Positions 11,218 through 37,805 of a stretch of DNA of 64,000 nt are shown piece by piece. Position 1 is the first letter of the stretch; every line of letters begins with the position of its first letter. The position numbers and the translations under genes are program-made. Source of the stretch: an uncultured Gemmatimonadota bacterium (lineage in GTDB: Bacteria; Gemmatimonadota; Gemmatimonadetes; Gemmatimonadales; Gemmatimonadaceae); contig CADEDA010000002.1 in assembly GCA_902825965.1 (NCBI GenBank), positions 248,001 to 312,000 on the forward strand, read 5' to 3'. The notes under the pieces were generated by a model that saw nothing but the letters and a program-made list of their open reading frames with translations, did not search any database and was not told the origin of the DNA.

Positions 11218-11443
11218 CTGTAGCCTGCGCGCAACAACAGGAAGGGGTCCAGCAACACCAATTAAGGGATTGTCGCCGTTTTTCCGTCGAAGCTGGCGGG
11301 CAAGGGTCGACAGGAATCTGGTGTAATTCATTGCAGTACAGCATCTTACATGCGCTTGTCCCGTCCGGGCCGTCGGTGATTCCTACGGCCCCGCTTGTGC
11401 CTAAAGGCAAAGAGACGCGACCGGCCCCCCGACCTCGGCAACA
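11218..11443 (+). promoter_or_regulatory. Intergenic region upstream of the NRPS/PKS operon, with small inverted repeats
   Basis: This 226-nt gap is visibly less GC-rich than the flanking genes and is the only sizeable gap before a run of genes reaching 28409, so it likely holds the operon promoter. I see a perfect 12-nt palindrome TGCCTAAAGGCA at 11398-11409, about 35 nt before the ATG, and a 6-bp stem GGCCGT/ACGGCC at 11368-11373 and 11385-11390. Either could be an operator or leader structure. No confident -35/-10 pair was identified. Confidence 0.35.
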
Positions 11444-14400: not shown

Positions 14401-16072
14401 GCTCGCGGACAAGATCACGCTCTACCGCAAGGCGTGGAAGGCGGCGGGCCACAAGGGGACCGGCCAGGTCGCCTTGATGCTGCACACCTTCGTCGGCGAC
14501 AGTGACGCCGAGGTGAAGGAGCTCGTGCGCGCGCCGATGAAGGCGTACCTGGGGACGTCGATCTCGCTCATCAAGGGCTTCGCCGCCGCCTTCCCGACGT
14601 TCAAGAAGGGGAAGGACGGCAAGGCGCCCGAACTCGACTTCCAGAGCCTCTCGGCGGAGGAGATGGATGCGCTCCTCGACTACTCGTTCGAGCGGTACTA
14701 CGAGACCAGCGGCCTCTTCGGCACGGTGGAGACCTGCGCCGCGATCGTCGACCGGCTGAAGGGCATCGGCGTCGACGAGCTGGCGTGCCTGATCGACTTC
14801 GGCGTCGACTCCGCGCGCGTGCTGCAGCACCTGAAGCAGCTCAACCGCGTGCGCGCACTCACGAGCAAGCCCCGGGCGACCTACGGCGACCAGTCGATCG
14901 CCGCGCAGATCGCCCGGCATCGGGTCACGCACCTCCAGTGCACGCCGTCGATGGCCGGCATGCTCATCGCGAACGACCGCAGCCGCGACGCCCTGCGCAG
15001 CCTGCAGACGGTCTGCATCGGCGGCGAGGCCTTCCCGCCGTCGCTCGCGGCCGAACTGCTGCGCCTCGTCCCCGGCGACGTGTTCAACATGTACGGCCCG
15101 ACCGAGACGACCATCTGGTCGTCGACGCACCAGGTGACGCAGGCGGACGGGACGATCCCGCTCGGCACGCCGATCGCGAACACCGAACTCTACGTGCTCG
15201 ACGCGTTCCGGCAGCCGGTCGCGCCGGGTGTCGCCGGCGAGCTGTACATCGGCGGCCGGGGTGTGGTGCGCGGCTACTGGCGCCGGCCGGAGCTGACCGC
15301 GGAGCGTTTCGTCGCGAACCCGTTCTCCGAGGACCGGGCCTCGCGGTTGTACCGCACCGGCGACCTCGTGCGCTGGCGCGAGGACGGCACGCTCGAGTTC
15401 CTCGGACGCCTGGACTTCCAGGTCAAGGTCCGCGGCTATCGCATCGAGCTCGGCGAGATCGACGCGGCGCTCTCCTCGCACCATGCCGTGCGGGAGGCCG
15501 TGGTCGTCGCGCGGCGTGAGGCGGACGGGGACCACCGTCTGGTGGCCTACGTCGTGTGGCGCAACGGCGCGACGACGGACGAGGTGGTCTCGCTGCGCGA
15601 GCACCTCCGCGTCTCGCTGCCCGAGTTCATGGTGCCGACCAACTTCGTCACGTTGCGCGACCTCCCCCGGACCCCCAACCAGAAGATCGATCGCAAGGCG
15701 CTGCCCGCGCCGGAGTCGGTGGCGCCCGTCGCGGCGACGCCGTCGCTGCCGGCTGTCGCCCCGGCGGGGGAGTTGGAGACCATGATCGCCGAGATCTGGA
15801 CCGAGGTGCTCAAGCTGCCCAGCGTGGGCGTGCAGGACAACTTCTTCGACCTCGGCGGCCATTCACTGCTCGCCGTGCAGGTGCACTCGCGACTCAAGAA
15901 GAAGCTGGAGCGGGAGCTGTCCATCACGGACCTCTTCCGTTTCCCCACCATCCGCGGGCTGGCCGGCTATCTCGGCGGCGAATCGGACGGTGGTGCCGTG
16001 AAGAGCGGGATGGACCGCGCCGCCCAGCGGCGTGAGATGGCGGCCCGGCGCACCCGTCGGCCGACGACGTAG
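11444..16072 (+). CDS. NRPS: formyltransferase - condensation remnant - adenylation domain interrupted by luciferase-like monooxygenase - PCP
   Basis: The product is 1542 aa. Residues about 1-180 are a formyltransferase fold with N94, H96 (NFHDGPLP) and D132 (VDEGAIL), the catalytic triad of formyltransferases; a C-terminal formyltransferase subdomain follows to about 310. Residues about 330-545 look like only the second half of a condensation domain and lack an HHxxxDG motif. The adenylation domain starts near 555 (core YTSGSTGRPKGVM near 702). At about 786-1130 it is interrupted by an FMN-dependent luciferase-like monooxygenase of the MupA/Atu3671 type (FYFSADENENQGDRYR, WTPERHFHAFGG). The adenylation domain then resumes (FNMYGPTETTIW, catalytic K1414 in NQKIDRKAL). 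The PCP has Ser1475 in DNFFDLGGHSLL. Expected chemistry is amino acid activation, amine oxidation (N-hydroxylation or similar) and possibly formylation. The PKS gene starts 17 nt downstream. Confidence 0.9.
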   Translation: MTQHPFSCFVIGTESLLISCAEILLDRGVRILGVISDEPSITAWSRERGLAVIPGSSDYTPTLAAQPFDYLLSITNLTIIPAAALALPRRGAVNFHDGPLPRFGGLYAPAWALMAGETRYAITWHLMTDAVDEGAILLQRPIDVSEGETSLTLNTKCFSAGLDSFPALVDLLAAPALAPTAHALDRSTYHGLAERPRAMAALDFAQPARSLASLVRALDFGQYANPLALPKLVHGNRVVLVGTLVGHSADPVSAAAGTVLAADGDTLTVAADGGTLTFGRLLCTDGGPLTGEAALEHLGMRLGERLGDLDGAFVEAVDRFARGSAKHEGWWAKRLHGLEPVELPYGEHRGAPAQYAVHPLPATTDRSRTLADFVLFVARLAGRTQFDLSWADAASDAARVPSVASPRLPLRIALDAGGSSEAARRDIAAALESARKRGGFARDIAARRPALRAMQGRPFSLPVGVEFATTLETRLAPTGVLTLVLGDDGAACWVYDASIVSPAQVETMAAQFAEMVAAGERTPWTALPLLGAETRTRVLATWNATAREVRADRCVHEMIAEQAARTPDAVAAVFEDVPLTYRELDTRANRLAHHLRARGAGPDTLVALCCDRSLEMLVAILGIHKAGAAYVPMDPAYPAERIAYMLEDAQAQLLVTQEAVLGELPDTRAEIVCIDRDWAAIAAHPAEVPVSGATSANLAYCIYTSGSTGRPKGVMVEHRNVVNFCAAMDERLGTEPGVWLAVTSLSFDISVLELLWTLTRGYKVVIYADEHRAAGMTAGFANAHKPLDFSLFYFSADENENQGDRYRVLMEGARFGDKHGFSAVWTPERHFHAFGGLYPNPSVTGAAVAAITARIGVRAGSCVLPLHHPVRVVEEWSIVDNLSAGRVGVSFAAGWQPNDFIFQPQNYADAKTRTVEMIETVRRLWRGETLSFPGPRGDVAVRTLPRPVQSELPIWYTTAGNPESYELAGTLGVNVLTHLLGQTAAELADKITLYRKAWKAAGHKGTGQVALMLHTFVGDSDAEVKELVRAPMKAYLGTSISLIKGFAAAFPTFKKGKDGKAPELDFQSLSAEEMDALLDYSFERYYETSGLFGTVETCAAIVDRLKGIGVDELACLIDFGVDSARVLQHLKQLNRVRALTSKPRATYGDQSIAAQIARHRVTHLQCTPSMAGMLIANDRSRDALRSLQTVCIGGEAFPPSLAAELLRLVPGDVFNMYGPTETTIWSSTHQVTQADGTIPLGTPIANTELYVLDAFRQPVAPGVAGELYIGGRGVVRGYWRRPELTAERFVANPFSEDRASRLYRTGDLVRWREDGTLEFLGRLDFQVKVRGYRIELGEIDAALSSHHAVREAVVVARREADGDHRLVAYVVWRNGATTDEVVSLREHLRVSLPEFMVPTNFVTLRDLPRTPNQKIDRKALPAPESVAPVAATPSLPAVAPAGELETMIAEIWTEVLKLPSVGVQDNFFDLGGHSLLAVQVHSRLKKKLERELSITDLFRFPTIRGLAGYLGGESDGGAVKSGMDRAAQRREMAARRTRRPTT

Positions 16073-16089
16073 ACCGAACGAGGAACGGA

Positions 16090-19000
16090 ATGAGCGACCC
16101 ACAGCAGTACAGCGGCAACGAGATCGCGATCGTCGGGATGGCCGGACGCTTCCCCGACGCGCGGACGTTGGCCGAGTTCTGGCGTAATCTCGAAGGCGGC
16201 GTCGAGTCGATCCGCGTCCTCAGCGAGGAGCAGCTGCGTGCGGCGGGGGTCCCCGAGGCCACCCTCGCCGACGCCAACTACGTGCGGGCCGCCGCGATCC
16301 TGGACGAGATGGAGTACTGGGACGCGCCGTTCTGGGGATTCACGCCGCTTGATGCGTCGATCATGGATCCGCAGCACCGCCTGTTCCTCGAGTGCGCCTA
16401 CGAGGCCCTGGAGGATGCCGGACATGCGCCCGAGCAGTTCCCGGGTGCGGTCGGTGTGTTCGCGGGCTGCGGCATGCAGGCGTACATGTCGTACAACCTG
16501 CTGCCCAACCGCAAGCTGATGGAGGGCACGGGGCTGTTCCTCGTGCGCCACACCGGCAACGACAAGGACTTCCTCTCCACGCGCGTCTCGTACCAGCTCA
16601 ACCTGCGCGGCCCGAGCGTCAACGTGCAGACGGCCTGTTCGACGTCGCTCGTCGCGATGCACATGGCGTCGCAGAGCCTGCTCTCCGGCGAGTGCGACAT
16701 GGCGCTCGCGGGCGGCGTGACGATCGAGCAGCCGCATCGCGTGGGGTACCACTACAAGGACGGCGAGATCCTCTCGCCGGACGGCCACTGCCGGGCCTTC
16801 GACGCGGCCTCCAAGGGGACGGTCTTCGGGTCGGGCGCCGGCGTGGTGGTGCTGCGCCGCCTCGAGGACGCGCTGCGTGACGGCGACCGGGTGCACGCGG
16901 TGATCCGCGGCTCCGCGATCAACAACGACGGGTCGAACAAGGTGGGCTATCTCGCGCCGAGCGTCGACGGCCAGGCGGCGTCGATCGTCGAGGCGCTGGC
17001 GATCGCCGGCGCGAGCCCGGAGTCGATCAGCTACGTCGAGACGCACGGCACTGGGACGCCGGTGGGCGACCCCATCGAGGTGACGGCGCTCACGCAGGCG
17101 TTCCGCACCGGCACGGAGCGCAGCGGCTTCTGCGGGATCGGGTCGCTCAAGACGAACATCGGGCACCTCGACACCGCCGCCGGGGTCGCGGGCCTCATCA
17201 AGACGGTGCTGGCGATGCAGCACCGCAAGCTGCCGCCGAGCCTGCACTTCACCCAGCCCAATCCGGCGATCGACTTCGCGTCCAGCCCGTTCTACGTGAA
17301 CGCGAGCCTGAAGGAGTGGAAGAGCGACGGACCGCGACGGGCGGGCGTGAGCTCGCTCGGCGTCGGCGGCACCAACGCGCACATCATCCTGGAAGAGGCG
17401 CCGGCGCGCGGGCCCTCGGGCCCGTCCCGGCCCTGGCAGTTGCTCACGGTCTCGGCGCGCACCGCGAGCGCCCTCGACACCGCGAGCGCGAACCTCGCGG
17501 ACCATCTCGAGGCGCACAAGTCGGTCCCGCTCGCCGACGCCGCATTCACGCTGCAGACGGGACGGCAAGCACTGAAGGAGCGGCGCATCGTCGTCGCGCG
17601 CAGTCCGGAGGACGCCCGCAAGGCGCTCGACACGAACGAGAAGGAACGCGTCTTCACGGACACGGCGAACGACTCGGCCTCGGTGACGTTCCTGTTCGCC
17701 GGTGGCGGGGCGCAGTACGCCGGCATGGGACGCGATCTCTACGAGCGCGAACCGGTGTACCGGCGCGCCGTCGATGCCTGCCTGAGCCACCTGCAGCCGG
17801 AGCTGGCGCGCGACGTCCGCGCGCTCCTCCAGCCGCCCGCCGGCGACGACACGGCCAGCGCGCGGCTCGAGAAGCCGTCCCTGGCGCTGCCGGCGCTGTT
17901 CACCACGCAGTACGCGATGGCGATGCTCCTCGAATCCTGGGGCATCACACCCGATGCGATGATCGGGCACTCGATGGGTGAGTACACGGCGGCCCACCTC
18001 GCGGGTGTCTTCTCGCTGCAGGACGCGGTGCGCCTGGTCGCGCTCCGCGGCCGGCTCTTCGAGCGCGTGCCGGCCGGCGCGATGCTCAGCGTGCCGCTCG
18101 GCGAGGCCGAGCTGCGGCCGCTGCTGGGCAGCGAACTCTCGCTCGCCGCGGTGAATGCGCCGGGCCTGTGCGTCGCCTCCGGGCCGGTGGCGGCCATCGA
18201 CGCACTCGAGAAGCGGCTGGCCGGGCAGGACGTCGAGGCCAAGCGGCTGCACATCGCCGTCGCCGCGCACTCGGCCATGCTCGAGCCGATCCTGCAGGAG
18301 TTCGGCGCGTTCTTCCGGACGATCGAGATGCAGGCGCCCAAGCGACGCTTCGTCTCCAATGAAAGCGGCACCTGGATCACGCCCACCCAGGCCACCGACC
18401 CGGACTACTGGGTGCGCCACCTGCGCAACACGGTGCGGTTCGCCGACGGCGTGAAGGAGCTGGTGAGCGAGCCCTCCCGGGTGCTGCTCGAGGTGGGACC
18501 GGGTCGCGTGCTCGCGACGCTCGCCAAGCAGCACCCGGAGCGCCACGTCTCGCAGCTCGTGATGACCTCGATGCGGCATCCCGGCGAGGAGGGCGACGAC
18601 CAGGCGGCGGCGCTCACCGCGCTCGGGCGGCTGTGGACCCGCGGGATCCGCCCCGACTGGAAGGCCCTCTGGGCCGACGAGTCGCGGCAACGCATCGCCC
18701 TCCCCACCTATCCGTGGGAACGGCAGCGCCATTGGATCGATGCCCCGCTCCCGACGCAGGCCGAGGTGCCCAGCGACACGCGTCGCGCCCGCGTCGACGA
18801 CTGGTTCGCACGCCCGAGCTGGCGCCAGGAGGTGCCGCTGCCGGCGCTCACGCCGCAGGATGAGCGGGTCCTGCTGTTCGTCGATGCCGCCGGCGTGACC
18901 GACGCCCTCGGCGACCTGCTGCAGGCGCAGGGCCGCCGCGTGTACCGCGTGCAGTCCGGCGCCGCGTTCAACCGCGATGGGGATCGGTTCACCCTGCGCG

Positions 19001-21858
19001 CCAGCCAGGCGACGGACCACGGACAGTTGCTGTCGGCGCTCGTCAAGGACGGCGGCATGCCGACCCGTGTGGTGTTCGGCTGGGGGCTCGGTGCGGCACG
19101 TCCCGACCTGTCGGCGATGCTCGACGGGGGCTTCCACGCGCTCCTGGCGTTCGCGCAGGCCCTCAGCACCGAGGAGCCCGCCGGCGACTTCCAGCTCGAC
19201 GTCCTCACCAACGACCTGCAACGCATCGGCGGCGAGGGCGCCCTCGCGCCCGTGCGCGCGCTGCTGCTCGGACCGGCTCGCGTGATCCCGCGCGAGTTCC
19301 CGCAGGTGCGGAGCCGCGCCATCGACCTCCGCCTGCCGGGCACCGCCCGCGAGCGCGAGCTGCTCGCCGCGCAGTTGGCGGCGGAGGTGGTGAGCGACGC
19401 CCGGGTGGAGACCGTGGCACTGCGCGGCGCCGACCGCTACGTGCAGGAGCTCGTGCCGCTCGCGATGGGCGCCGCGGCGACGCGCCTGCGGGAGCGCGGC
19501 GTGTACCTCATCACCGGTGGCCTCGGCGGGATCGGCTACGCGCTCGCCGAGCATCTTGCGCGCACGCAGCGCGCCCGTCTGGTGCTCGTCGGCCGCAGTG
19601 CCTCGGCCGGCCGCGCCGCCCAACGGGTCGCAGCGCTCGTCGCGCTGGGCGCCGAGGTGGAGGTCGTGCAGGCCGACATCGCCCGCGCCGACCAGGTGCA
19701 GCGGGCCATCGACGCGGCGACGGCACGCTTCGGCGCGCTGCACGGCGTCTTCCATGCGGCCGGCACGCTCGGCGACAGCCTGATCCCGCTCAAGAGCCGC
19801 GAGGACGCCGAACGCGTGCTCGCGCCCAAGGTGCAGGGCACCCTCGCCCTCGATGCCGCGCTCGGCGAGCGGCCGCTCGACCTCATGGTGCTGTTCTCGT
19901 CGGTGAGCTCCGTGGCGGGCCTCGCCGGCCAGGCGGACTACGCGGCGGCGAACGCTTTCCTCGACGCATTCGCGCACGAGCGCAGCGCGCGCACCGGCCA
20001 GTTCACCGTGGCGGTGGGCTGGAGCGCGTGGAAGGACGTCGGCATGGCCGCCGCGATCAGCGGCGGCCAGGGCAGCGGTGGTGGTGTCGGCGAGACCGTA
20101 CACCCGGTGCTCGGCACGCGCATGTGGGCCAGCCCCGAGGCCGAGATCTTCTCCGCCAGTCTCGCGGTCGATTCACACTGGGTGCTCTCGGAGCACCGTC
20201 TCCGCGGGGGACGGGCGTTGATCCCGGGCACCGGCTACCTCGAGATCGCGCGGGCCGCGCTCGAGGCGCGCGGAGGGGGGCGTCCCGTGGAGTTGCGCGA
20301 CGTCGCCTTCATGTCGCCGTTCGTGGTGGAGGACCATGCGCCGCGCGAGCTGCGGGTGCACGTCGGCCACATCGGCGCGGACGCGCGGACGCTGGTGATC
20401 GCCGGACGCACGCAGGGCGAGGACGGCCAGGTCCATTGGCAGGAGCATGTGACCGCCGCCGGCGGATTCACCGACGCGGTCGTCCCCGCGCCGCTGGACC
20501 TCAATGCGATCGCCGCCCGGTGTACGCTCCGCGAGGACCGGTTCACGGGGACGGAGGAGAATCCGCACCTGGACTTCGGGCCGCGCTGGAAGAACCTCCG
20601 CGCCATCCGGTACGGGCGCGACGAGGCGATCGCCGAGCTGGAACTCCCGGCGGCCTTCGCCGGCGATCTCGCGGAGTACCCGCTGCATCCTGCGCTGATG
20701 GACATGGCGACGGCCTGCGCCGAGGCGCTGATCCCGGGCTTCGACGGCACGCGCGACTTCTACGTGCCGCTGTCGTACACGCGGCTCACGATGTTCGCGC
20801 CGCTGCCGACGCACATCCGCAGCCACGTGCGCCTGGCGCCGAGCGACTTCGATCCGAAGGAGATCGTGGTGTTCGACGTGACGATCACCGACGCCTCGGG
20901 TACCGTGCTCGTCGACATCGGCGAGTTCATGATGACGCGTGTGGTCGACACGGCGCAGCTGCACGAGGCCGGCTCGCGCGGCGCCCATCGCCGCGCGCAT
21001 GCGAACTTCGATCCGCCGCCGGTGGCGGAGGTCGCGCCGCCGATGGTGCAGGGCCTCGAGGAGGCGATCACCGCGGTCGAAGGCATGCAGGCGATCGATC
21101 GGATCGCGGCCGGGCCTGCGGTGCCGCAACTGTTCTGCACGCCCAAGGACGTGCGGGCGCTCATCGCGGAACTGCGCGCGGCCCTGGTGCCCAAGGCCGC
21201 GGTGCCGGAGCCGCTGCTGGTGGCGGTGCCCACCGTCCCGCTCCATGAGATCGAGGCGGTGCTCGCCACGCACGAGGTGGTCAGCCAGTGCGTGGTGCTG
21301 CAGCGCCGCAATCGCCCGGGTGAGTTGAAGCTCGTGGCCTACGTGGTGTTCGCACCGGGCGAGCAGGCGACGGTCAGCGACCTGCGCCGCTTCCTCAAGT
21401 CGCGGTTGCCCGAGCATCTCGTGCCGTCGACGTTCGTCGACCTCGACGCGCTGCCGACCGCCCCAGACGGGACGGTCGACCGTCCGGCGCTGCCGGATCC
21501 GTTCGGGGCGGCGGACGACTACGTCGCCCCGCGCACCGAGACCGAGATCATGATCGCCGAGATCTGGAAGGAGGTGCTCGGCATCGGCCGGGTGAGCGTG
21601 TACGACAACTTCTTCGACGCGGGCGGGCACTCGCTGCTCGCGGTGCGTGTGGTCACGCGCATCGACAAGAAGATCGGCGTGCGGCTCAACCAGGCGGTGA
21701 TGGTGCTCCAGACCCTGGAGCAGATCGCCGCGGAATGCGACAAGCGTCGGGGATCGTCGCCGAACGCCCCCACGGCCCCTGACGGTCCCGCGCCCGGCAC
21801 GCCCGCACCCGCGGGCGGCCTCGGCAAGAAGCTGTTCAACGCATTGAGAGGCAAGTGA
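16090..21858 (+). CDS. Type I polyketide synthase module: KS-AT-KR-DH-(orphan adenylation C-subdomain)-ACP
   Basis: The product is 1922 aa. The KS has Cys183 (TACSTS), His319 (HGTGT) and His359 (NIGHLD). The AT has Ser628 in GHSMGEY; AVAAHSAM near the specificity site is compatible with malonyl-CoA, which is an inference. The KR has ITGGLGGIG and Tyr1284 (QADYAAANAFLDAF). The DH has His1369 in a motif one residue longer than HxxxGxxxxP, with the partner Asp likely in HPALMDMA. Before the ACP (about 1715-1810) sits the C-terminal subdomain of an adenylation domain without its N-terminal core; its catalytic Lys position is Thr1795 (APDGTVDRPAL). The ACP has Ser1848 (AGGHSLLAV). No thioesterase is present. 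It would extend the NRPS-bound aminoacyl unit by one reduced, perhaps dehydrated, ketide. It overlaps the next gene by 4 nt (GTGA). Confidence 0.92.
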   Translation: MSDPQQYSGNEIAIVGMAGRFPDARTLAEFWRNLEGGVESIRVLSEEQLRAAGVPEATLADANYVRAAAILDEMEYWDAPFWGFTPLDASIMDPQHRLFLECAYEALEDAGHAPEQFPGAVGVFAGCGMQAYMSYNLLPNRKLMEGTGLFLVRHTGNDKDFLSTRVSYQLNLRGPSVNVQTACSTSLVAMHMASQSLLSGECDMALAGGVTIEQPHRVGYHYKDGEILSPDGHCRAFDAASKGTVFGSGAGVVVLRRLEDALRDGDRVHAVIRGSAINNDGSNKVGYLAPSVDGQAASIVEALAIAGASPESISYVETHGTGTPVGDPIEVTALTQAFRTGTERSGFCGIGSLKTNIGHLDTAAGVAGLIKTVLAMQHRKLPPSLHFTQPNPAIDFASSPFYVNASLKEWKSDGPRRAGVSSLGVGGTNAHIILEEAPARGPSGPSRPWQLLTVSARTASALDTASANLADHLEAHKSVPLADAAFTLQTGRQALKERRIVVARSPEDARKALDTNEKERVFTDTANDSASVTFLFAGGGAQYAGMGRDLYEREPVYRRAVDACLSHLQPELARDVRALLQPPAGDDTASARLEKPSLALPALFTTQYAMAMLLESWGITPDAMIGHSMGEYTAAHLAGVFSLQDAVRLVALRGRLFERVPAGAMLSVPLGEAELRPLLGSELSLAAVNAPGLCVASGPVAAIDALEKRLAGQDVEAKRLHIAVAAHSAMLEPILQEFGAFFRTIEMQAPKRRFVSNESGTWITPTQATDPDYWVRHLRNTVRFADGVKELVSEPSRVLLEVGPGRVLATLAKQHPERHVSQLVMTSMRHPGEEGDDQAAALTALGRLWTRGIRPDWKALWADESRQRIALPTYPWERQRHWIDAPLPTQAEVPSDTRRARVDDWFARPSWRQEVPLPALTPQDERVLLFVDAAGVTDALGDLLQAQGRRVYRVQSGAAFNRDGDRFTLRASQATDHGQLLSALVKDGGMPTRVVFGWGLGAARPDLSAMLDGGFHALLAFAQALSTEEPAGDFQLDVLTNDLQRIGGEGALAPVRALLLGPARVIPREFPQVRSRAIDLRLPGTARERELLAAQLAAEVVSDARVETVALRGADRYVQELVPLAMGAAATRLRERGVYLITGGLGGIGYALAEHLARTQRARLVLVGRSASAGRAAQRVAALVALGAEVEVVQADIARADQVQRAIDAATARFGALHGVFHAAGTLGDSLIPLKSREDAERVLAPKVQGTLALDAALGERPLDLMVLFSSVSSVAGLAGQADYAAANAFLDAFAHERSARTGQFTVAVGWSAWKDVGMAAAISGGQGSGGGVGETVHPVLGTRMWASPEAEIFSASLAVDSHWVLSEHRLRGGRALIPGTGYLEIARAALEARGGGRPVELRDVAFMSPFVVEDHAPRELRVHVGHIGADARTLVIAGRTQGEDGQVHWQEHVTAAGGFTDAVVPAPLDLNAIAARCTLREDRFTGTEENPHLDFGPRWKNLRAIRYGRDEAIAELELPAAFAGDLAEYPLHPALMDMATACAEALIPGFDGTRDFYVPLSYTRLTMFAPLPTHIRSHVRLAPSDFDPKEIVVFDVTITDASGTVLVDIGEFMMTRVVDTAQLHEAGSRGAHRRAHANFDPPPVAEVAPPMVQGLEEAITAVEGMQAIDRIAAGPAVPQLFCTPKDVRALIAELRAALVPKAAVPEPLLVAVPTVPLHEIEAVLATHEVVSQCVVLQRRNRPGELKLVAYVVFAPGEQATVSDLRRFLKSRLPEHLVPSTFVDLDALPTAPDGTVDRPALPDPFGAADDYVAPRTETEIMIAEIWKEVLGIGRVSVYDNFFDAGGHSLLAVRVVTRIDKKIGVRLNQAVMVLQTLEQIAAECDKRRGSSPNAPTAPDGPAPGTPAPAGGLGKKLFNALRGK

Positions 21859-28481: not shown

Positions 28482-30443
28482 TCAGCGCACCGTCGGCTTC
28501 CAGTGCCGCTGCCAGGCCAGGAGATTCGCCGTCGCCCACAGCGCGAGGCCGCTGGCGCCGCGCCCGGCAAGGAACTCCGTCCAGAGCGCCCGCGTGGGAC
28601 CCACCGCCAGCAGGCCCGACGCGGCGAGATTCGACTCGCTGAACAGCTCGTCGGCCCAGGCGCGGAGCGGACCGCGGAGCCAGCGGTCGATCGGGACCGA
28701 GAATCCCATCTTCGGTCGCTCGATGAGTTCCCGCGGCACGTGGCGGTAGAGGATCTGCCGCAGCACCCACTTCGTCTCGCCGTCGCGGATCTTGAAGCGG
28801 CGCGGCAGCGACCAGGCCAACTCGGCCACGCGATGATCGAGCAGCGGGACGCGGACCTCGAGCGACACCGCCATGCTCACGCGATCGACCTTCGCCAGCA
28901 GGTCGTCGATCAGGTAGCCGAGCTGGTCGGCGAGCATCATGCGGTCGAGTAGGGAGAACGGCGAGCCGAGCCGCAGGATGCGTTCGACCACGCCCTCCGG
29001 TTCCTGCGCGCCGGGCACCAGTGCGAGCGGGTCCTGCACCGCGGAGACGAGGGAGCGGTACATCAGCGCCGCATCGGGTTCGCGCAGCAGGTTGCCGATC
29101 TTGTGGAGCTTGTCGCCGGGCAGGCGCTGTTGCATGCCGGCGGGCAGCACCGGACTGACGCGGTGGTGCAGGCCGTCCCACGCGTGCGCCGGCATCGCAT
29201 GCAGCACGGCAGCGGCGAGCCGGCGCGCCACGTGCGGCGTGCGCGCGCTCGGTGCGATCACCTGCTCCCCGAAGCGGTAGCGATTGTAGCCGCCGAACAG
29301 CTCGTCGCCGCCGTCCCCGGAGATCGCGACCGTCACCTCACGCCGCGACTCGCGGCAGATGAGGTACGTCGGCAGCTGCGACGGGTCCGCCAGCGGTTCG
29401 TCGAACCACTCCGGCAGGCTGGGCACCAGGTTGAGCGCATCCGCGCCCGTCTGGTGGATGGTCGTGTGGTCGGTCCCCAGATGGGCCGCCACCCGCGCGG
29501 CGTGCTCGGCCTCGTTGAAGTCCGCATCGTCGAACCCGACGCTGAACGTGCGGATGGGCCGCGACGACGCAGCCTGCATGAGCGCGACCGTCGTGCTCGA
29601 GTCGATGCCGCCGGAGAGGAAGGCACCGAGCGGCACGTCGGCGACCATGCGCAGCTTGACCGCGTCCGACAGCAGGCGTTCGGTCGCGTCCACACCCTCG
29701 GCGTCGGATCCCGTGAACGGTGCGGCGAGCGCACGACGTGCGACGTCCTCGTTGGACCAGAAGGCCCGCGACGGCGGCAGGCTCGCGTGTGGATCGCGGA
29801 TGCTCACGACGTGCCCCGGCATGAGCTTGCGGACCGCACGATAGATCGTCGCCGGCGCCGGGACGTAGAGGTAGCGCAGGTAGGCGGCGACCGCGTCGCG
29901 GTCCACGGTCGCGTCGAACCGCGGCCCCACGACGAGTGACTTGAGCTCCGACCCGAAGGAGATGAAGCCGGGTTCGGCGAAGATAAACAGCGGCTTCTTG
30001 CCGAAGCGGTCGCGGGCGAGGTGCAGGACACGCTCGCGGGCATCCCAGACCGCGATCGCGAACATGCCGACGAACCGTGGCAGCGAGGCGTCGACCCCCC
30101 AGGCCTCGAACGCGGCGAGCAGTACCTCGGAGTCCGAACGACCCTCGAAGCTGGCACCTCCGGCACGCAGCTCGGCGCGCAGCGCCTCGAAGTTGTAGAC
30201 CTCACCGTTGAAGATCATGGTGAAGCGGCCACTGGCCGAGCGCATGGGCTGGTGCCCATTGGCCGTGAGGTCGATGATGGCGAGACGACGGAACCCGAAG
30301 GCGATGCCCGCGCGCTCCTCCAGCCAGACGCCCGCGTCGTCCGGACCGCGGTGCCGAATGGCCGTGATCATCCGCTCGACATCAGTCCGGCGCGCGTCGG
30401 CCGGAGCGGCCGAACCGGACCAGAAACCTGCGAATCCACACAT
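28482..30443 (-). CDS. asnB: Asparagine synthase (glutamine-hydrolysing) type amidotransferase, second copy
   Basis: The 653-aa two-domain enzyme begins MCGFAGF (nucleophile Cys2). It has HRGPDDAG, FNGEVYNFEALR and RDRFGKKPLF in the glutaminase half, and the PP-loop SGGIDSSTTVAL with GDGGDELFGGYNRYR in the synthetase half. It is convergent with the ACP gene and divergent from the lasso precursor. It is not the lasso cyclase: it keeps the glutaminase Cys, which cyclases need not have, and a dedicated cyclase sits at 31867-33804. A carboxamide-forming step on the NRPS/PKS product or an envelope sugar acid is plausible. Plain asparagine synthesis remains possible. Confidence 0.88.
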   Translation of the reverse strand: MCGFAGFWSGSAAPADARRTDVERMITAIRHRGPDDAGVWLEERAGIAFGFRRLAIIDLTANGHQPMRSASGRFTMIFNGEVYNFEALRAELRAGGASFEGRSDSEVLLAAFEAWGVDASLPRFVGMFAIAVWDARERVLHLARDRFGKKPLFIFAEPGFISFGSELKSLVVGPRFDATVDRDAVAAYLRYLYVPAPATIYRAVRKLMPGHVVSIRDPHASLPPSRAFWSNEDVARRALAAPFTGSDAEGVDATERLLSDAVKLRMVADVPLGAFLSGGIDSSTTVALMQAASSRPIRTFSVGFDDADFNEAEHAARVAAHLGTDHTTIHQTGADALNLVPSLPEWFDEPLADPSQLPTYLICRESRREVTVAISGDGGDELFGGYNRYRFGEQVIAPSARTPHVARRLAAAVLHAMPAHAWDGLHHRVSPVLPAGMQQRLPGDKLHKIGNLLREPDAALMYRSLVSAVQDPLALVPGAQEPEGVVERILRLGSPFSLLDRMMLADQLGYLIDDLLAKVDRVSMAVSLEVRVPLLDHRVAELAWSLPRRFKIRDGETKWVLRQILYRHVPRELIERPKMGFSVPIDRWLRGPLRAWADELFSESNLAASGLLAVGPTRALWTEFLAGRGASGLALWATANLLAWQRHWKPTVR

Positions 30444-30869: not shown

Positions 30870-31055
30870 GTGTACCAGAAGCCTGTCGTCGAGAAGTTCG
30901 GCACGTTCCGCGACCTCACCCGTTGGGGCTTCAGCAGCGCCACGGACGGCGGCTCGATCTTCGGCATCGGGAGCCCGGGCTGCGAGACCGATCTGTCCGA
31001 CTGGGGCATGGGCACGATCCGCGTGGGCTGCCCGACGGGCCCGACGGCGTCCTGA
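30870..31055 (+). CDS. Lasso peptide precursor (18-aa leader, predicted 43-aa core)
   Basis: The start is the GTG at 30870, placed by GAGGA 6 nt upstream; an in-frame ATG at 30834 would add 12 unlikely residues. The 61-aa product has the leader MYQKPVVEKFGTFRDLTR. Relative to the cleavage site it has Tyr-17, Pro-14, a branched residue at -12, Gly-8, Phe-6 and Thr-2, exactly the lasso leader pattern read by the RRE protein and the B2 protease. The core would begin WGFSSATD, so Trp1 and Asp8 can form an 8-residue macrolactam. The tail is Gly-rich with Cys20 and Cys36 and ends PTGPTAS (Ser43). At 43 residues the core is about twice the usual 15-26. The ring and the leader are confident; the mature length is not. 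Confidence 0.88.
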   Translation: MYQKPVVEKFGTFRDLTRWGFSSATDGGSIFGIGSPGCETDLSDWGMGTIRVGCPTGPTAS

Positions 31056-31078
31056 GCCAAGTCGCAGGTGAGGGTTGA

Positions 31079-31107
31079 ACGCGCGTTGCGCCGGTCGCAA
31101 CGCGCGT
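31079..31107 (+). terminator. Strong hairpin between lasso precursor and biosynthetic genes (attenuator/terminator)
   Basis: A perfect 12-bp stem (31079-31090 with 31096-31107, loop CCGGT) is followed by the pyrimidine stretch CTTTCTTTCCC. It lies 24 nt after the precursor stop and about 43 nt before the RRE gene. Partial termination or 3' end protection here would give more precursor transcript than enzyme transcript, as is common in RiPP operons. The U-tract is interrupted, so read-through is expected. Confidence 0.75.
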
Positions 31108-31149
31108 CTTTCTTTCCCTGCCACGCTTCGCCCCCCTCGTCGCCTCCTG

Positions 31150-31449
31150 ATGCTGCCCACGGCGAATCCGTCCGTCATCTTCCAGAAGATCGATGATGGC
31201 GCGGTGCTCTTCTCTCCCGGGACCGAGCTCTACTTCGGCTTGAACGAAGTCGGCGCCGCCATCTGGGAACTGCTCCCGCCCCGCTGCGCGACGATCGACG
31301 ATCTCTGTGCGCACCTGATGGTCCGGTACCCCGACGTGCCGGGGGACACCATTCGCGTGGACGTGACGGAACTGCTCGCGCAACTGGTGGCGGAAGGCCT
31401 GGCCGACCCGGCCGGCCACCGCGGCTCCGATGCCGCCGCCACTTCATAA
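31150..31449 (+). CDS. Lasso RRE protein (PqqD-like, B1)
   Basis: From the ATG at 31150 the product is 99 aa with the PqqD winged-helix pattern: FQKIDDGAVLFSPGTELYFG, LNEVGAAIWELL, IDDLCAHLMVRYPD and VTELLAQLVAEGL. Such stand-alone RiPP recognition elements bind the leader (here Tyr-17/Pro-14) and present the precursor to the B2 protease and the cyclase. An upstream TTG at 31075 would place the hairpin inside the coding region and is less likely. No clear Shine-Dalgarno precedes the chosen ATG, so expression may depend on transcription through the hairpin. The gene overlaps B2 by 20 nt. Confidence 0.88.
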   Translation: MLPTANPSVIFQKIDDGAVLFSPGTELYFGLNEVGAAIWELLPPRCATIDDLCAHLMVRYPDVPGDTIRVDVTELLAQLVAEGLADPAGHRGSDAAATS

Positions 31450-31870
31450 ACTCCTGACACTCGACGGTCGCGGCTGGCGCGACCTGTTCCGCGCGCAAGT
31501 CGCGCTGCTGCGCGCCCGACGGCTGCTGGCGCGCCAACCCATCGGGACACTCGCGATCCGCGAAACGGTCAACGCCGGCGCACAGCACGGCGACCCCGAC
31601 CGCGCCGAAGCGATCGCCCGCGCGGTCGTCCGGGCCGCGGACCACGGCCTCTTCCGCCCGTATTGCCTCGTCCGCGCGCTCGCGATCCGGCAGCTCCTGC
31701 TCGACGACGGCATCCGCGGCGCGAGCATCCGCATCGGCGTGCGTCGTCGCGATGGACGGTTCCAGGCGCACGCCTGGGTGCGCTGGGGCGATCGGATCCT
31801 CGGCGACCGTGCGGCGCACGTCGCGCAGTTCACCGAGGTCGACGACCTGCGCGTCATGGGGCGACCGTGA
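31430..31870 (+). CDS. Lasso leader peptidase (transglutaminase-like, B2)
   Basis: The 146-aa protein of the transglutaminase-like cysteine protease family specific to lasso clusters has the catalytic triad Cys79 (PYCLVRALAIRQ), His114 (QAHAWVRWG) and Asp126 (ILGDRAAHV). It should cut the precursor after the leader's -1 residue (Arg18), freeing the Trp1 amine for ring closure. The length is normal for a split B2. It starts inside the end of the RRE gene (20-nt overlap), and its TGA overlaps the GTG of the cyclase gene. Confidence 0.92.
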   Translation: MPPPLHKLLTLDGRGWRDLFRAQVALLRARRLLARQPIGTLAIRETVNAGAQHGDPDRAEAIARAVVRAADHGLFRPYCLVRALAIRQLLLDDGIRGASIRIGVRRRDGRFQAHAWVRWGDRILGDRAAHVAQFTEVDDLRVMGRP

Positions 31871-33804
31871 GCGCGCTCGCGGCACGCGTGGTCACCGGCG
31901 CGGCCGCCGCGACCATGGAGGCGGACGGCGGCACGGTGGGTCGGATGCTGCACGCCATGGCAGCGAGCGGCGGCAGTGCACAGCAGGTCGTGCAGGCGCC
32001 GACCGTCCCGGGATGTCAGGTCACGCTGGGCGTGGCGCAGCACCCCTGGGATCGCCCGGTACGTGCGGTCGCCATCCGCGAGCCGGTCGTCGTGGCGACC
32101 GATGCGTCGCTGTTCCATCGCGCCGACCTGCTGCGGCGCGTCCGCGAGTCGCTCGCGGTGGACCCCGCGGAGGCGAGCGATGCCGACGGCGTGCTCGCAC
32201 TCCACCGGCAACACGGGCCCGCGGGCGTCGGAGCACTCGAGGGCGAGTTCGCCTTCGTGCTGTGGGACGCCGCCCGCGCCGTGCTGGTCGCGGCGCGCGA
32301 CTTCGCCGGCACCCGGCCACTCTTCTTCGCGCGGCTCCCCGACGGCATCGCACTCGCGACCACCGTCGGCGGCGTCCTCGCCGATCCGCGCGTCCCTCGC
32401 ACGCTGGATCTCGCCTCCCTCACGACGGTCGCCGCCGGGCTCTGGCACCACGCCGCCGGCACGGCCTATCGCGCGGTGGAGGAACTCCCGGCCGGTCATC
32501 TGCTCGAATGGTCGCGCGAGACGGGCGTACGCATCACCGCATTCTGGCAACCGCCCACCGACCTCGAGACCCGGCGACGCCCGCTCGACGGCGCGGCCGA
32601 GGAACTGCGGACGCTGCTCGTCGACGCCGTGGCGCAGCGACTCGCGCCGACGGGCGTGACCGGACTCTCGCTGAGTGGTGGCTGGGATTCGACGGCCGTG
32701 GGCGCGGCCGCGACCGTCGCGCTGCGCGGGGACGCCGCCCGTCGGCTGCAGCCGGTGAGCCTCAGCTATCCGCACGGCGACCCGGGTCGCGAGGACGAGC
32801 TCATCCGCGAGGTCGAATCGCACTGGGGCATCGCGACGGCGTGGATCGCGGTGGACGACATCCCGTTGCTGGGAGACGCGGCGACGGCGGCGTCCCGCCG
32901 CGACCTGCCGTTCACGCACACGTTCGAGCACTGGAACCGGGCATTGTCGCGGCGTGCACGCGCGGCCGGCGCGCGCGTGATGTTCGACGGCGTCGGTGGC
33001 GACCAGCTCTTCCAGGTGAGCGACATCTATCTCTCCGATCTCTTCGGCCGCGGCCACTGGATCGAGCTGGCCCGCCAATGGCGGGCGCGCCGCGCACCCG
33101 GGATCGCGGGGTGGCGTCAGCTCTGGCGCTGGGGGATCCGCCCCGCCCTCCCAGCGCGCGTCACCCACGCTCTGGCGCGCCTGCGCGGCACGGCGCCCCC
33201 GCGCTCGCATCTCGAACGTCAGGCGCCGTCGTGGTTCGAGCCACGCTGGTTCGCGCACGCCGGCATCGCGCCGCGCGAGGCCGATGCGGCGCCGCGCCTG
33301 CCGACCGCGAGCCGGGTGCTCGCCGAGACGCATGCGTTCCTGCGCTTCCCGTTCTTCGCCCGCATCACCGGGATGCTGCGGCAGTACGCGCTGGAGGAAG
33401 GCGTGCGGCTGCACTCGCCCCTGCTCGACGACCGCGTGGTGGCGTTCGCGGCGCGCCGCCCGTGGAGCGACCGCGCGGACGGACGGGAGAGCAAGCGGCT
33501 GCTCCGGCACGCGATGCGCGGCCTCCTGCCGCCGTCGGTGCTCGCGCCGCGCCCGCACCGGACCGGCGTGACCTCCGCATATTTCCTCCGCCACCTGCGC
33601 GGCGAGGGGGTCGCGCTCGTCGACTCGCTCCTGCAGGATCCGCTCCTCGCCTCCCTCGGGATCATCGATGCCTCACGACTGCGGCGGGCCTGGGATTTCG
33701 TGATGACGCATGACCACGATGAACTCGGCGGGCGCATCTTCTTCACGTTGCAGGCCGAGCTCTGGCTGCGCGCCCACCAGGCGCTCCTTCCCGACGCGCG
33801 ATGA
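31867..33804 (+). CDS. Lasso cyclase (asparagine-synthetase-like macrolactam synthetase, C)
   Basis: The start is set at the GTG at 31867 (GTGA overlap), giving 645 aa. The N-terminal glutaminase-like half (about 1-215) has no leading Cys and is degenerate (VLVAARDFAGTRPLFF). The synthetase half has the PP-loop S270-GGWDSTAVG, FDGVGGDQLFQVSD and a C-terminal catalytic Lys region (RESKRLLRHAMRGLLP). It should adenylate the Asp8 side chain and join it to the Trp1 amine. Length and layout match known lasso cyclases. It ends overlapping the kinase start by 4 nt (ATGA). Confidence 0.92.
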   Translation: MSALAARVVTGAAAATMEADGGTVGRMLHAMAASGGSAQQVVQAPTVPGCQVTLGVAQHPWDRPVRAVAIREPVVVATDASLFHRADLLRRVRESLAVDPAEASDADGVLALHRQHGPAGVGALEGEFAFVLWDAARAVLVAARDFAGTRPLFFARLPDGIALATTVGGVLADPRVPRTLDLASLTTVAAGLWHHAAGTAYRAVEELPAGHLLEWSRETGVRITAFWQPPTDLETRRRPLDGAAEELRTLLVDAVAQRLAPTGVTGLSLSGGWDSTAVGAAATVALRGDAARRLQPVSLSYPHGDPGREDELIREVESHWGIATAWIAVDDIPLLGDAATAASRRDLPFTHTFEHWNRALSRRARAAGARVMFDGVGGDQLFQVSDIYLSDLFGRGHWIELARQWRARRAPGIAGWRQLWRWGIRPALPARVTHALARLRGTAPPRSHLERQAPSWFEPRWFAHAGIAPREADAAPRLPTASRVLAETHAFLRFPFFARITGMLRQYALEEGVRLHSPLLDDRVVAFAARRPWSDRADGRESKRLLRHAMRGLLPPSVLAPRPHRTGVTSAYFLRHLRGEGVALVDSLLQDPLLASLGIIDASRLRRAWDFVMTHDHDELGGRIFFTLQAELWLRAHQALLPDAR

Positions 33805-34814
33805 GTGACGGGATCCCGACGCTCCAGCACTACCGCGTGTACGGACACTGCCTCGCCTCGACGGTCGTGTTCCCCGAGTTGCGCGCGGTCGATCCCGCGG
33901 AGGTCGGCGGCGTGCGCTGGCGCTTCGCGACCGCTCCCGCGCTCCCGCCGATGGTGGACGCGACGCCGCTCGGGGCCGAGCAGCTCTACGAGGGCGTGGC
34001 GGCGCGACTCCTCGCACATCGCGACGGGCACCGGATCGAGGTGGACGACACCGGGAGCTTCGACCTCGCGACGGACCGCCGGACCATCACGCTGCAGCCG
34101 CGGCCGGGTGCCTGGCCCGATTTCGTCCGCGCCCACCTGGTGGGCCGCGTGCTGGGCACGGCCTTGTACCTCGACGGACTGCTCCCGCTGCATGGCAGTG
34201 CGGTGGAAACGCGAGCCGGGGTGATCGGCTTCCTCGCACCCAAGGGATTCGGCAAGTCCTCGCTCGCCCTCGCCCTCACGCAGGCAGGTGCGCGGCTCGT
34301 GACGGACGACGCACTGCCCGTCGCGCTCGGCGCGCGGGCTGACGGCGCGAGCGCTGACGGTGCACCCGCCGACGGCGGTGCAGCGGCGGCGCAGGCCTGG
34401 CCCGGTGTGTCGAGCCTGCGCGTGCACGACGATGCGGTCGCCGCGGTGGGCGCCGTCGGCGCGGCGGACAGCGCCCTGCGCTCGCGCGAAGGCAAGCAGA
34501 TCGTCGCACCGGCGGAGGTCGTGTCGCGACCGCTCCCGCTCGCGGCGCTCTACCTCCTCGCGCCCACCAGCGGTGGTGACGCGACGACACTGCGGGCCAC
34601 GGCGTTGCCGCCGACGCTCGCCGCCATCAGCGTGCTGTCGCACGTGAAGATCGGGGCGATGCTCGGTCCCGGGGCGGCGGCGCCGATGCTCGCGCGGGCC
34701 GCCGCACTCGCCCGCGCGGTGCCCGTCCATCGCCTGCAACTCCCACGGGCGCTCCCGACGCTCGTCGAGGTCGCGCGGACGCTGCTCCAGTGGCACGGCG
34801 GAGCGCCGGCATGA
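33801..34814 (+). CDS. HprK-related lasso peptide kinase (probable C-terminal serine kinase)
   Basis: The 337-aa protein resembles HPr-kinase-related proteins encoded in paeninodin-type lasso clusters. The P-loop is FLAPKGFGKSSLALAL (K152, S153), followed by the acidic VTDDALPV. In that family the kinase phosphorylates the side chain of the precursor's C-terminal Ser; the precursor here ends in Ser43, which fits. An Ala/Asp/Gly-rich insert with repeated ADGA units (about residues 174-196) looks like an expanded loop. The gene overlaps the cyclase and the ABC ATPase by 4 nt on each side, so it belongs firmly to the cluster. Activity on this peptide is an inference. Confidence 0.82.
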   Translation: MSDGIPTLQHYRVYGHCLASTVVFPELRAVDPAEVGGVRWRFATAPALPPMVDATPLGAEQLYEGVAARLLAHRDGHRIEVDDTGSFDLATDRRTITLQPRPGAWPDFVRAHLVGRVLGTALYLDGLLPLHGSAVETRAGVIGFLAPKGFGKSSLALALTQAGARLVTDDALPVALGARADGASADGAPADGGAAAAQAWPGVSSLRVHDDAVAAVGAVGAADSALRSREGKQIVAPAEVVSRPLPLAALYLLAPTSGGDATTLRATALPPTLAAISVLSHVKIGAMLGPGAAAPMLARAAALARAVPVHRLQLPRALPTLVEVARTLLQWHGGAPA

Positions 34815-35815
34815 TCGTCGAGGTGGACGGCATCACCAAGCGGTTCCCGGTGCGTCGCGGCTGGGCCGAGTTGCTGCGCGCGCCGTTCGCCGCGCCGCGC
34901 CGCGTGGTCGTGGATGATGTGCGCTTCGCGGTGCGCGAGGGCGAGATCTTCGGCCTGCTCGGACAGAACGGGGCCGGCAAGACGACGCTCTTCAAGACGC
35001 TCGCGACCCTCATCGTCGCCGACGCCGGGCGGGCGCGCATCGGCGGCCACGACGTGGCCACGGAACCGGCCGCCGTGCGCCGACTCGTCGCGCCGGTGCT
35101 CGCGAACGAACGCAGCCTCTACTGGCGGCTGTCCGCGCGCGAGAACCTGCGCCTCTACTGTGCGCTGCAGGGACTGTCCGGTGCGGCCGCACGCGCCGAG
35201 GAGATGCGTGTGCTGGAGGTCACGGGCCTCGCGTCGACCGGGACGCAGCTGGTGGGCACGTTCTCCACCGGGATGCGGCAGCGGCTGCTCATCGCGCGCG
35301 CGCTGCTCGCGCGGCCGCGCGTGCTGCTGTTGGACGAACCGACGCGCAGCCTCGACCCCATCTCGGCGCGCGACTTCCGCCGATTCCTCCGCGAGACGGT
35401 GGTCGGTGCGGAGGGGTGCACGGTGCTGCTCGCCACGCATGATGCGGACGAGGTCTTCGAGCTCTGCGACCGCGTGGGGGTGCTCGACCGCGGCCGCCTC
35501 CTCGCGGTGGATGCGACCCCCGTGCTGCGCGAGCGCGCCGGATCGGACCGGTACGTGCTGTGGGTGCGCGCGGACTCGGTGGCGGCGCTGCGCGCGATGA
35601 CGGGCGCCACACAGGACGTCCGTCCCGTGGCGGGTGCGGACGGCTGGCAGGCATGCGCGGTGACCATCGCCGGCGGCGCCGACGGCGTGGCGGCGCTGAA
35701 TGCCGCCCTCGTGGCCGGTGGCCATGCGGTGGCACGTGTCGAGCGTGTGGCGTCGTCGCTGGCCGAGCTCATCGAGGCTGTGGTCGGTGCGGCGGGACGG
35801 AGGCGCGATGCGTAG
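34811..35815 (+). CDS. ABC transporter ATP-binding protein (lasso cluster exporter subunit)
   Basis: From the ATG at 34811 (ATGA overlap) the product is 334 aa. It has Walker A GQNGAGKTT, an ABC signature of the ABC-2 type (FSTGMRQRL), Walker B VLLLDEPT and the H-loop ATHDADE. A C-terminal domain of about 100 residues follows (DRYVLWVRADSVAALR onward), as in drug/antibiotic exporters of the DrrA/CcmA group. With the adjacent permease it probably exports the mature lasso peptide and gives self-immunity. Most lasso clusters use a single fused exporter, so a two-gene ABC-2 pump is a variant. Confidence 0.88.
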   Translation: MIVEVDGITKRFPVRRGWAELLRAPFAAPRRVVVDDVRFAVREGEIFGLLGQNGAGKTTLFKTLATLIVADAGRARIGGHDVATEPAAVRRLVAPVLANERSLYWRLSARENLRLYCALQGLSGAAARAEEMRVLEVTGLASTGTQLVGTFSTGMRQRLLIARALLARPRVLLLDEPTRSLDPISARDFRRFLRETVVGAEGCTVLLATHDADEVFELCDRVGVLDRGRLLAVDATPVLRERAGSDRYVLWVRADSVAALRAMTGATQDVRPVAGADGWQACAVTIAGGADGVAALNAALVAGGHAVARVERVASSLAELIEAVVGAAGRRRDA

Positions 35816-36608
35816 CATCCTCGCGCTCATGCGCGTCGCGTGGTTGACGGCGCTGAGCTACCGCCTCGGCACGCTCATCTCGGTCGTGGGGCTGCTCGCG
35901 TCGATCGTCCCGATCTACTTCATCTCGGACGCCGTGCAGGACGTGGCGCAGGCGTCGATCCGCCTCGAGGGCGGGCAGTACTTCGGATTCGTCGTCATGG
36001 GCATCGCCGCGACCTATGTGCTCATGGCGGCGGTGGCGGCGATCCCGAGTGCGCTCGCCGGGAGCATCGGGAGCGGCACCTTCGAGTCGCTGCTCGTCAC
36101 GCGCACGAGTGTCCCGTGGCTGCTCGCCGGCATGGCGGCGTACCCGCTCGCCCAGAGCATGGTCCGCGCGACGCTCCTGCTGCTCGGCGCCACGCTGCTG
36201 GGCGTCGGCCTCGAGTGGAGCGCGCTGCCGCTCGCCGCCGTCGTCCTCGCGCTGATGATCGTCGCCTACGCGTCCCTCGGCCTCGTGGCCGGCGCCCTCG
36301 TCCTCGTGTTCCGCACCGCAGGTCCGCTCGTCACCGCCGTGGTCGCCGGCTCGGGGTTGCTCGGCGGCGTGTACTACTCCACCGCGGTGATCCCGGGGTG
36401 GCTGCAGTCGCTGTCGGACCTGGTGCCGCTGACCTACGCGCTGCGCGCGATCCGCCGGCTGCTGCTCGGCGCCGCCGCCTGGTCCGACGTCGTCGGGGAC
36501 GTGAGCCGCCTGGCCGGACTGACCGCGCTCACGCTGCTCCTCGGGACCCTCGCGTTCGCGCTCGCGCTCCGGCACGCGCGCAACGCCGGCACGCTCTCGC
36601 AGTACTGA
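35808..36608 (+). CDS. ABC-2 type transporter permease (lasso cluster exporter subunit)
   Basis: The 266-aa protein starts at the ATG at 35808, inside the end of the ATPase gene (8-nt overlap). It has about six hydrophobic segments (for example LGTLISVVGLLASIVPIYFI and FVVMGIAATYVLMAAVAAIP), and the C-terminal half has the ABC-2 pattern GLLGGVYYSTAVIPGWLQSL followed by LVPLTYALRAIRRLLLG. It forms the membrane channel for the preceding ATPase. The nucleotidyltransferase gene starts 3 nt downstream. The substrate assignment (lasso peptide) rests on context. Confidence 0.86.
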   Translation: MRSILALMRVAWLTALSYRLGTLISVVGLLASIVPIYFISDAVQDVAQASIRLEGGQYFGFVVMGIAATYVLMAAVAAIPSALAGSIGSGTFESLLVTRTSVPWLLAGMAAYPLAQSMVRATLLLLGATLLGVGLEWSALPLAAVVLALMIVAYASLGLVAGALVLVFRTAGPLVTAVVAGSGLLGGVYYSTAVIPGWLQSLSDLVPLTYALRAIRRLLLGAAAWSDVVGDVSRLAGLTALTLLLGTLAFALALRHARNAGTLSQY

Positions 36609-36611
36609 CCG

Positions 36612-37805
36612 ATGGCCGAGACGCCGCTGTCCCCCGAGGTGCGACTCGTGTTCCGCGCGGCGGATCCGGCGGCGACGCCGGCGGAACTGCGCGCCGTGGC
36701 GGCCACGCTCGGCAGCGACCTCGCGCGCTGGGAGCGCGTGATGATCCTCGCCGAACGCGAACTCGCGACCGCGGCGTTGGCGCGCGGGCTCCGCGGCGCC
36801 GACGCCCTGCTGCCCGGTCCCCCGGCGGAGTACCTGCGGAAGAGCGCGATGATGAGCGACTTCCGCATGCAGCGGCTCTCGACGCGCGTGCAGGAGACGC
36901 TGCGCGCACTCGAGGCGCGCGCCGTCCCCGTCTGCCTGCTGAAGGGCGCGGCGGTCGGCGCCTACCTGGACCCGACGTTCCGCGCGCGGCCGATGATGGA
37001 CGTGGACCTGCTGGTCCATCCGGCCGACGCCGCGCGCGCGGTCGAGGCGCTCCGAGACGCCGGCTGGCAGCAGACCACCGATCCCATGCTGCAGGCCTTG
37101 CTCGCCGACGAGCACCACCTGCCGCCGTTCTACGATCCGCAGTTCGCGGACGTCCGCCTGGAGCTCCACACGGCGATCCTGCCGGCGGACCATTCGTTCG
37201 GCTTCGACGCGGCCGCGATGTGGCGGGATGCGCGGCCCGCCGGTGCACCGTTCGCCGCGGCGCGTGTCCCCTCGCCCGCACACCTCCTGCTGCACACCTG
37301 CGTGCACTTCGCCTGGCAGCACACGATGGAGTTCGGCGCCTGGCGCTCGTTCCGTGTGCTGGGCGCGCTGGCCGCGCGTGAGGACCTGGACTGGGATGCT
37401 TTCATCCGCCTCGCGCGCGACACACGTGCGGCGACCGCCTGTCACTGGACGTTCCGGCTCGCCGTGCGGATGGGGGCGTTGCCCGTGCCCGCGTCGGTGA
37501 TCGCCGCCCTCGCACCGCCGACGCCGGAGCGGGTCTGCAAGGTGATCGAGCGCAGCGTGATCGCCACCCTCGCGCCGGGCGAGGGCCCCACGAGTCCGTC
37601 GATCCGGCTCTCGCGGCTCCTGTGGCGTGCGGCGCTGCGTCCCGCGTGGAGCGGACACCGCTCACCCGGCCGCTGGGACCCCGAGCATCGATGGGAGCGC
37701 GCCCGCGGGGAGCGCGGGGATCCGACGCTGCCCGCGAAGCTGCGACGGCATCTCGCGGCGTATCGGGCGTGGTGGCGTTTCCTGCGCTACACGGTCTCGC
37801 GTTGA
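36612..37805 (+). CDS. Lasso-cluster nucleotidyltransferase family protein
   Basis: The 397-aa protein has the core CLLKGAAVGAYLDPTF followed by RPMMDVDLLVHP, the Lys/Asp-x-Asp pattern of the large nucleotidyltransferase family found in lasso and other peptide clusters with HprK-like kinases. A helical N-terminal part (about 1-85) and a His-rich C-terminal half (LLLHTCVHFAWQH) follow the usual layout. It may transfer a nucleotide or other group to the phosphorylated peptide, or act in immunity; the reaction is not established for the family as far as I know. It is the last gene of the lasso operon, facing a convergent gene 27 nt away. Confidence 0.8.
   Translation: MAETPLSPEVRLVFRAADPAATPAELRAVAATLGSDLARWERVMILAERELATAALARGLRGADALLPGPPAEYLRKSAMMSDFRMQRLSTRVQETLRALEARAVPVCLLKGAAVGAYLDPTFRARPMMDVDLLVHPADAARAVEALRDAGWQQTTDPMLQALLADEHHLPPFYDPQFADVRLELHTAILPADHSFGFDAAAMWRDARPAGAPFAAARVPSPAHLLLHTCVHFAWQHTMEFGAWRSFRVLGALAAREDLDWDAFIRLARDTRAATACHWTFRLAVRMGALPVPASVIAALAPPTPERVCKVIERSVIATLAPGEGPTSPSIRLSRLLWRAALRPAWSGHRSPGRWDPEHRWERARGERGDPTLPAKLRRHLAAYRAWWRFLRYTVSR

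Follow-up and report, generated by a model that had tools for sequence, protein, structure and literature searches.

Several lasso peptides and their gene clusters resemble parts of the system reported here. Pandonodin, a class IV lasso peptide of 33 aa in total, has the longest tail (18 aa), while achromonodin-1 has the largest loop (2026 review, PMC13352647). Pandonodin is made from genes A-D only, and lasso tail disulfides apparently arise without a dedicated enzyme, none being present in the pandonodin and LP2006 clusters (both points from PMC9266682). HprK homologues phosphorylate the C-terminal Ser of lasso precursors, and the pseudomycoidin (psm) cluster encodes both a kinase, PsmK, and a nucleotidyltransferase, PsmN, on which the addition of a hexose depends (PMC9266682 and PMC8498205). 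Kinase and nucleotidyltransferase gene types have also been reported around ruminal lasso clusters (PMC7533575).

The window analyzed here is a 64,000-nucleotide stretch from an uncultured Gemmatimonadota bacterium, in which positions 30870-37805 form a complete lasso-peptide operon consisting of the precursor gene A, genes B1, B2, and C, an HprK-type kinase gene, a two-gene ABC exporter, and a gene for a PF14907 nucleotidyltransferase (Table 1). Each tailoring part of this system has a precedent, the kinase and nucleotidyltransferase in pseudomycoidin and the tail disulfide in pandonodin. The precursor resembles that of pandonodin in its long tail carrying a tail-tail Cys pair, but its core is 43 aa and its operon adds a kinase and a nucleotidyltransferase. 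The likeness to pseudomycoidin, drawn from gene types and from published descriptions (PMC9266682 and PMC8498205), lies in a kinase and a nucleotidyltransferase that act, here by prediction, at a C-terminal Ser; however, pseudomycoidin comes from Bacillus, and the reviews consulted describe no tail disulfide for it. With paeninodin, the operon shares split B1/B2 genes, an HprK homologue (PadeK in paeninodin), and a C-terminal Ser, but paeninodin is a class II peptide without a disulfide (PMC9266682), and no nucleotidyltransferase is mentioned for it in the literature consulted. LP2006 and the felipeptins (class IV) are similar in having a tail disulfide and no shared dedicated oxidase, but the literature consulted describes neither a kinase nor a nucleotidyltransferase for them. 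A literature search for lasso peptides in Gemmatimonadetes, Gemmatimonadota, or Gemmatimonas found no paper on this family. The original prediction considered the combination of features undescribed. This is too broad for the kinase-nucleotidyltransferase pair, which is known from pseudomycoidin (PMC9266682), but a 43-aa core with paired tail cysteines together with both enzymes was not found in the literature searched, most subscription journals lying outside it.

Table 1. Positions within the window of the genes, precursor segments, and hairpin of the lasso-peptide operon.
Feature	Position	Strand	Evidence
A, lasso precursor gene, 61 aa, GTG start	30870..31055	+	sequence; NF033521; relatives' start context
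Leader, 18 aa	30870-30923	+	sequence
Core, 43 aa	30924-31052	+	sequence
Stop	31053-31055	+	sequence
Predicted macrolactam ring codons, W1-D8	30924..30947	+	G2 and D8 invariant in genus and phylum alignment
Tail segment from Cys20 (30981-30983) to Cys36 (31029-31031), predicted disulfide-closed loop	30981..31031	+	Cys invariant in genus
C-terminal Ser43 codon, predicted kinase target	31050..31052	+	invariant in genus; Ser ends 40/51 kinase-near precursors
12-bp hairpin with T-rich tract following it, A-B1 intergenic region	31079..31107	+	fold z -3.75 (intergenic region)
B1, PqqD-like RiPP recognition element	31150..31449	+	PF05402 1.9e-17
B2, transglutaminase-like leader peptidase, Cys79 and His114 conserved	31430..31870	+	PF13471 2.2e-17; NF033537
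C, asparagine-synthetase-like macrolactam cyclase, SGGxDS invariant	31867..33804	+	PF00733 3.5e-32
K, predicted HprK-type peptide serine kinase, P-loop with GKS, TDD motif	33801..34814	+	profile, motifs, model
ABC exporter ATPase	34811..35815	+	PF00005 1.7e-27
ABC-2 type permease	35808..36608	+	PF01061 7.4e-15
N, PF14907 (NTP_transf_5) nucleotidyltransferase-fold enzyme; KG, RPMxDxD, ELH motifs	36612..37805	+	PF14907 3.8e-37

The precursor reads GTG(30870)-YQKPVVEKFGTFRDLTR (leader), then WGFSSATDGGSIFGIGSPGCETDLSDWGMGTIRVGCPTGPTAS (core) and the stop codon. We prefer GTG 30870, the start originally proposed, over ATG 30834 because GAGGA sits just upstream of the former and because nearly all relatives have an ATG or GTG immediately before the equivalent Tyr or one codon earlier; ATG 30834 was rejected on the position of the ribosome site and on the relatives' starts. 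As had been noted, the leader places Y-17, P-14, G-8, F-6, and T-2 in lasso register, and it scores 26.1 bits against the NCBIfam model lasso_leader_L3 (NF033521), above the cut-off of 19. The precursor has no significant match in PHROGs, and the source genome contains a single precursor of this type and a single lasso B2 gene. The hairpin that separates A from B1 is also present 3' of the precursor gene in most relatives. In lasso operons, such hairpins attenuate downstream genes relative to the precursor, and the one in the window is likely an attenuator that would provide an excess of precursor.

The product of this operon is almost certainly a lasso peptide, as first proposed: the full gene set is present, and both the leader and B2 (about 1e-17 against NF033537) are above the cut-offs of their models. 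B1 scores under the cut-offs of the lasso PqqD models. The cyclase C matches the lasso cyclase models NF033535/NF033561 below their curated cut-offs, which is what might be expected if this were a different RiPP class using a lasso-like leader. We regard that as very improbable, as the leader, the split B1/B2, the Asn-synthetase-type cyclase, and the conserved Asp8 all indicate a lasso. Nor is the arrangement due to chance, because matching genes and precursors are found again and again in other members of the phylum. Two other biosynthetic features are found in the window. A second Asn-synthetase/amidotransferase gene adjoins the operon on the opposite strand (28485-30443, -), with an XrtA/PEP-CTERM amidotransferase model as its best match, below cut-off. 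Farther upstream, hybrid NRPS/PKS genes (11405-21855, +) encode a formyltransferase, an AMP-binding domain, and a carrier protein, followed by KS-AT-KR-DH-ACP; this AMP-binding domain is apparently interrupted by a luciferase-like monooxygenase domain.

The conservation of the precursor was assessed at two levels. A precursor search of 179 genomes of the same family gave matches in 31, and the genus set comprises six precursors from five genomes, i.e., the one in the window plus five others from four genomes of the same genus. For the phylum, the lasso leader model run on 395 genomes exceeded its cut-off in 50, and the stretches around 60 places yielded 68 precursors from 29 Gemmatimonadota genera. 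A scan of a named-genome collection placed 37/37 loci in Gemmatimonadota, although it used one leader pattern that diverged leaders elsewhere would escape.

The core reads as originally described, with W1, D8, C20, C36, and S43 and a Gly-rich tail of 35 residues. Within the genus (n = 6), the leaders share Y2, P5, G11, F13, R14, L16, and T17 (numbering of the 61-aa precursor), and the cores share G2, D8, the cysteine-containing pairs Gly-Cys and Cys-Pro, and the terminal Ser. No genus precursor lacks Asp8, Thr-2, or the terminal Ser, and the family search proposed at the outset thus returned homologues that keep both cysteines and this last residue. Asp8 is an acid acceptor within the lasso-typical positions 7-9, and its invariance in the genus supports the predicted eight-residue ring; G2 and D8 are also invariant in a 17-sequence phylum alignment, as are Tyr-17, Pro-14, Gly-8, and Thr-2 of the leader. 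Core length varies in the genus from 34 to 44 aa, with the gaps mostly in the inter-Cys stretch. A similar pattern is seen at a locus with tandem precursors (L065, 8270 and 8854; G141), in which the cores are 41 and 34 aa and the residues missing from the shorter one are mainly inter-Cys. The core in the window had been called exceptionally long. It does go beyond the longest characterized lasso, but in the phylum its length is unexceptional because the 68 cores have a median of 35 aa and a range of 11-46, the 43 aa of the window ranking third longest.

Both cysteines lie in the tail and are conserved in the genus, and a Cys20-Cys36 disulfide would probably form. Since neither is in the ring, the ring-disulfide suggested earlier finds no support, and the bridge would be tail-tail, i.e., class IV-like. 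Across the phylum, 41 of the 68 precursors have two Cys (in 21 genera), 12 have three, and 15 have none, while not one has exactly one; a rough Poisson calculation that takes one precursor from each genus gives ~6e-6 for such a complete lack of single-Cys precursors, a figure that ignores shared ancestry and serves as a guide only. Four precursors (L072, L077, L078, and L115) combine a ring Cys with a tail Cys and would give class III-like bridges. The two cysteines might instead bind metal or form intermolecular disulfides, for which the three-Cys precursors of two genera (L070, L073-L076, L096, and L104) could speak by leaving one Cys unpaired or paired between molecules. We consider this quite unlikely, as two Cys are the usual number, single Cys are absent, and the class IV precedents bridge intramolecularly. 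The operon showed no gene for an enzyme dedicated to disulfide formation.

Not all precursors in the phylum follow the same layout. In genus g5, several (L066-L069 and L071) have no detected homologue of lasso B, C, or the kinase in the stretch analyzed around them, and some of the genomes bearing these lone precursors also have clustered copies. In genus g2, four cores of 17 aa ending in YHRS or similar (L084, L091, L092, and L108) form a separate short lasso group, with no Cys in the core and no kinase or nucleotidyltransferase found nearby. Judged by precursor sequence, long, cysteine-paired, Ser-ending lassos are normal in Gemmatimonadota, and the precursor in the window is no one-off.

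The C-terminal Ser stands beside an HprK-like kinase, as originally pointed out. Single-sequence searches matched HprK weakly (Pfam HPr kinase E 0.0021, under the gathering score), but a profile built from 31 relatives hits HPr kinases of known structure at 1.5e-7 (1ko7, 1jb1, and 2qmh at about 1e-7), and the predicted model (pLDDT 92) has a PEPCK/HprK fold. The H-S/A-V, GKS, and DD motifs are kept in the kinase alignment, and full-length homologues are found at 45/60 phylum loci. The link between kinase and terminal Ser is strong but not strict: of the 51 precursors with a kinase gene in the vicinity, 40 have a terminal Ser and 11 have another last residue, and 10 more precursors carry a terminal Ser although no kinase gene was found around them, some of these being on short contigs. 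The nucleotidyltransferase gene recognized in the original prediction is borne out by its PF14907 match, and the KG, RPMxDxD, and ELH motifs are kept in the alignment of its homologues, which occur at 37/60 phylum loci. A search of its profile against PDB sequences gave nothing meaningful, and even the best matches of its predicted model (pLDDT 89.5) are weak, with ANT(2'')-Ia first and FKRP lower (best E 4.8e-3). Kinase and nucleotidyltransferase genes are both near 44/68 precursors.

Phosphorylation of Ser43 is probable on this evidence, and further modification by the PF14907 enzyme is somewhat favored. The product could also be a disulfide lasso with an unmodified C-terminus, the two enzymes serving another substrate or self-protection. 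The exceptions to the kinase-Ser association are consistent with this, as are two other PF14907 genes in the source genome (G000:C3:203328-204047 and G000:C22:10172-10870), but kinase and nucleotidyltransferase share a short operon with lasso genes in many genera, and PadeK, PsmK, and PsmN work on the C-terminal Ser (PMC9266682), which makes this reading unlikely. Equally unlikely is that a protease trims the tail after ring formation, to leave a mature lasso of ~20 aa and a follower-like, Cys-containing remainder, an alternative also raised originally. Host carboxypeptidases do truncate lasso tails in cellular expression (PMC13352647), and genus variation is greatest after Cys20. However, all genus precursors keep both cysteines and the last Ser, a terminal Ser is common in the phylum, and B2 is the sole protease gene in the operon. 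The main argument against trimming is that the terminal Ser persists even though the residues ahead of it vary, and the tail probably remains full length.

We propose that the operon would make and export a 43-residue lasso peptide as follows. B1 would bind the Tyr/Pro/Gly leader, B2 would cut after Thr-Arg(-1), and C would form an isopeptide bond between the Trp1 N-terminus and the Asp8 side chain, closing an eight-residue ring around the tail. The kinase would phosphorylate Ser43, most likely while the precursor is still linear, as PadeK does, and the PF14907 enzyme would add a group on the phosphate, either a hexose (cf. pseudomycoidin) or a nucleotide/sugar phosphate; precedent suggests that the group may be a hexose, and the fold that it may be a nucleotide. 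Around or after ABC-2 export, Cys20 and Cys36 would oxidize to the tail-tail disulfide that closes the variable loop. The computed monoisotopic neutral masses are 4233.87 for the unmodified linear peptide, 4215.86 for the lasso, 4213.85 with the disulfide, 4293.81 with disulfide and phosphate, and 4455.86 with one hexose in addition. We find the general mechanism likely, namely a class IV-like lasso with a tail disulfide, in which a kinase phosphorylates the C-terminal Ser and the nucleotidyltransferase afterwards extends it. This assessment applies to the general mechanism and not to every step jointly, all chemical steps being ones that we infer from gene content, motifs, conservation, and predicted folds.

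A product matching these predictions would be longer than the longest characterized lasso, and it would join a tail disulfide with a C-terminal phospho-modification, so far described separately in the literature searched. The conserved ring beside a variable inter-Cys loop suggests a natural display scaffold, and the operon would offer a system for testing which group PF14907 enzymes attach. More tentatively, there might be a Gemmatimonadota-wide family of giant lassos, with cores of up to 46 aa, in which a conserved ring and ring-proximal tail are combined with a disulfide-closed variable loop and a PF14907-extended phospho-Ser. Within the literature searched, the product would found the first characterized lasso family for Gemmatimonadota, a poorly cultured phylum.
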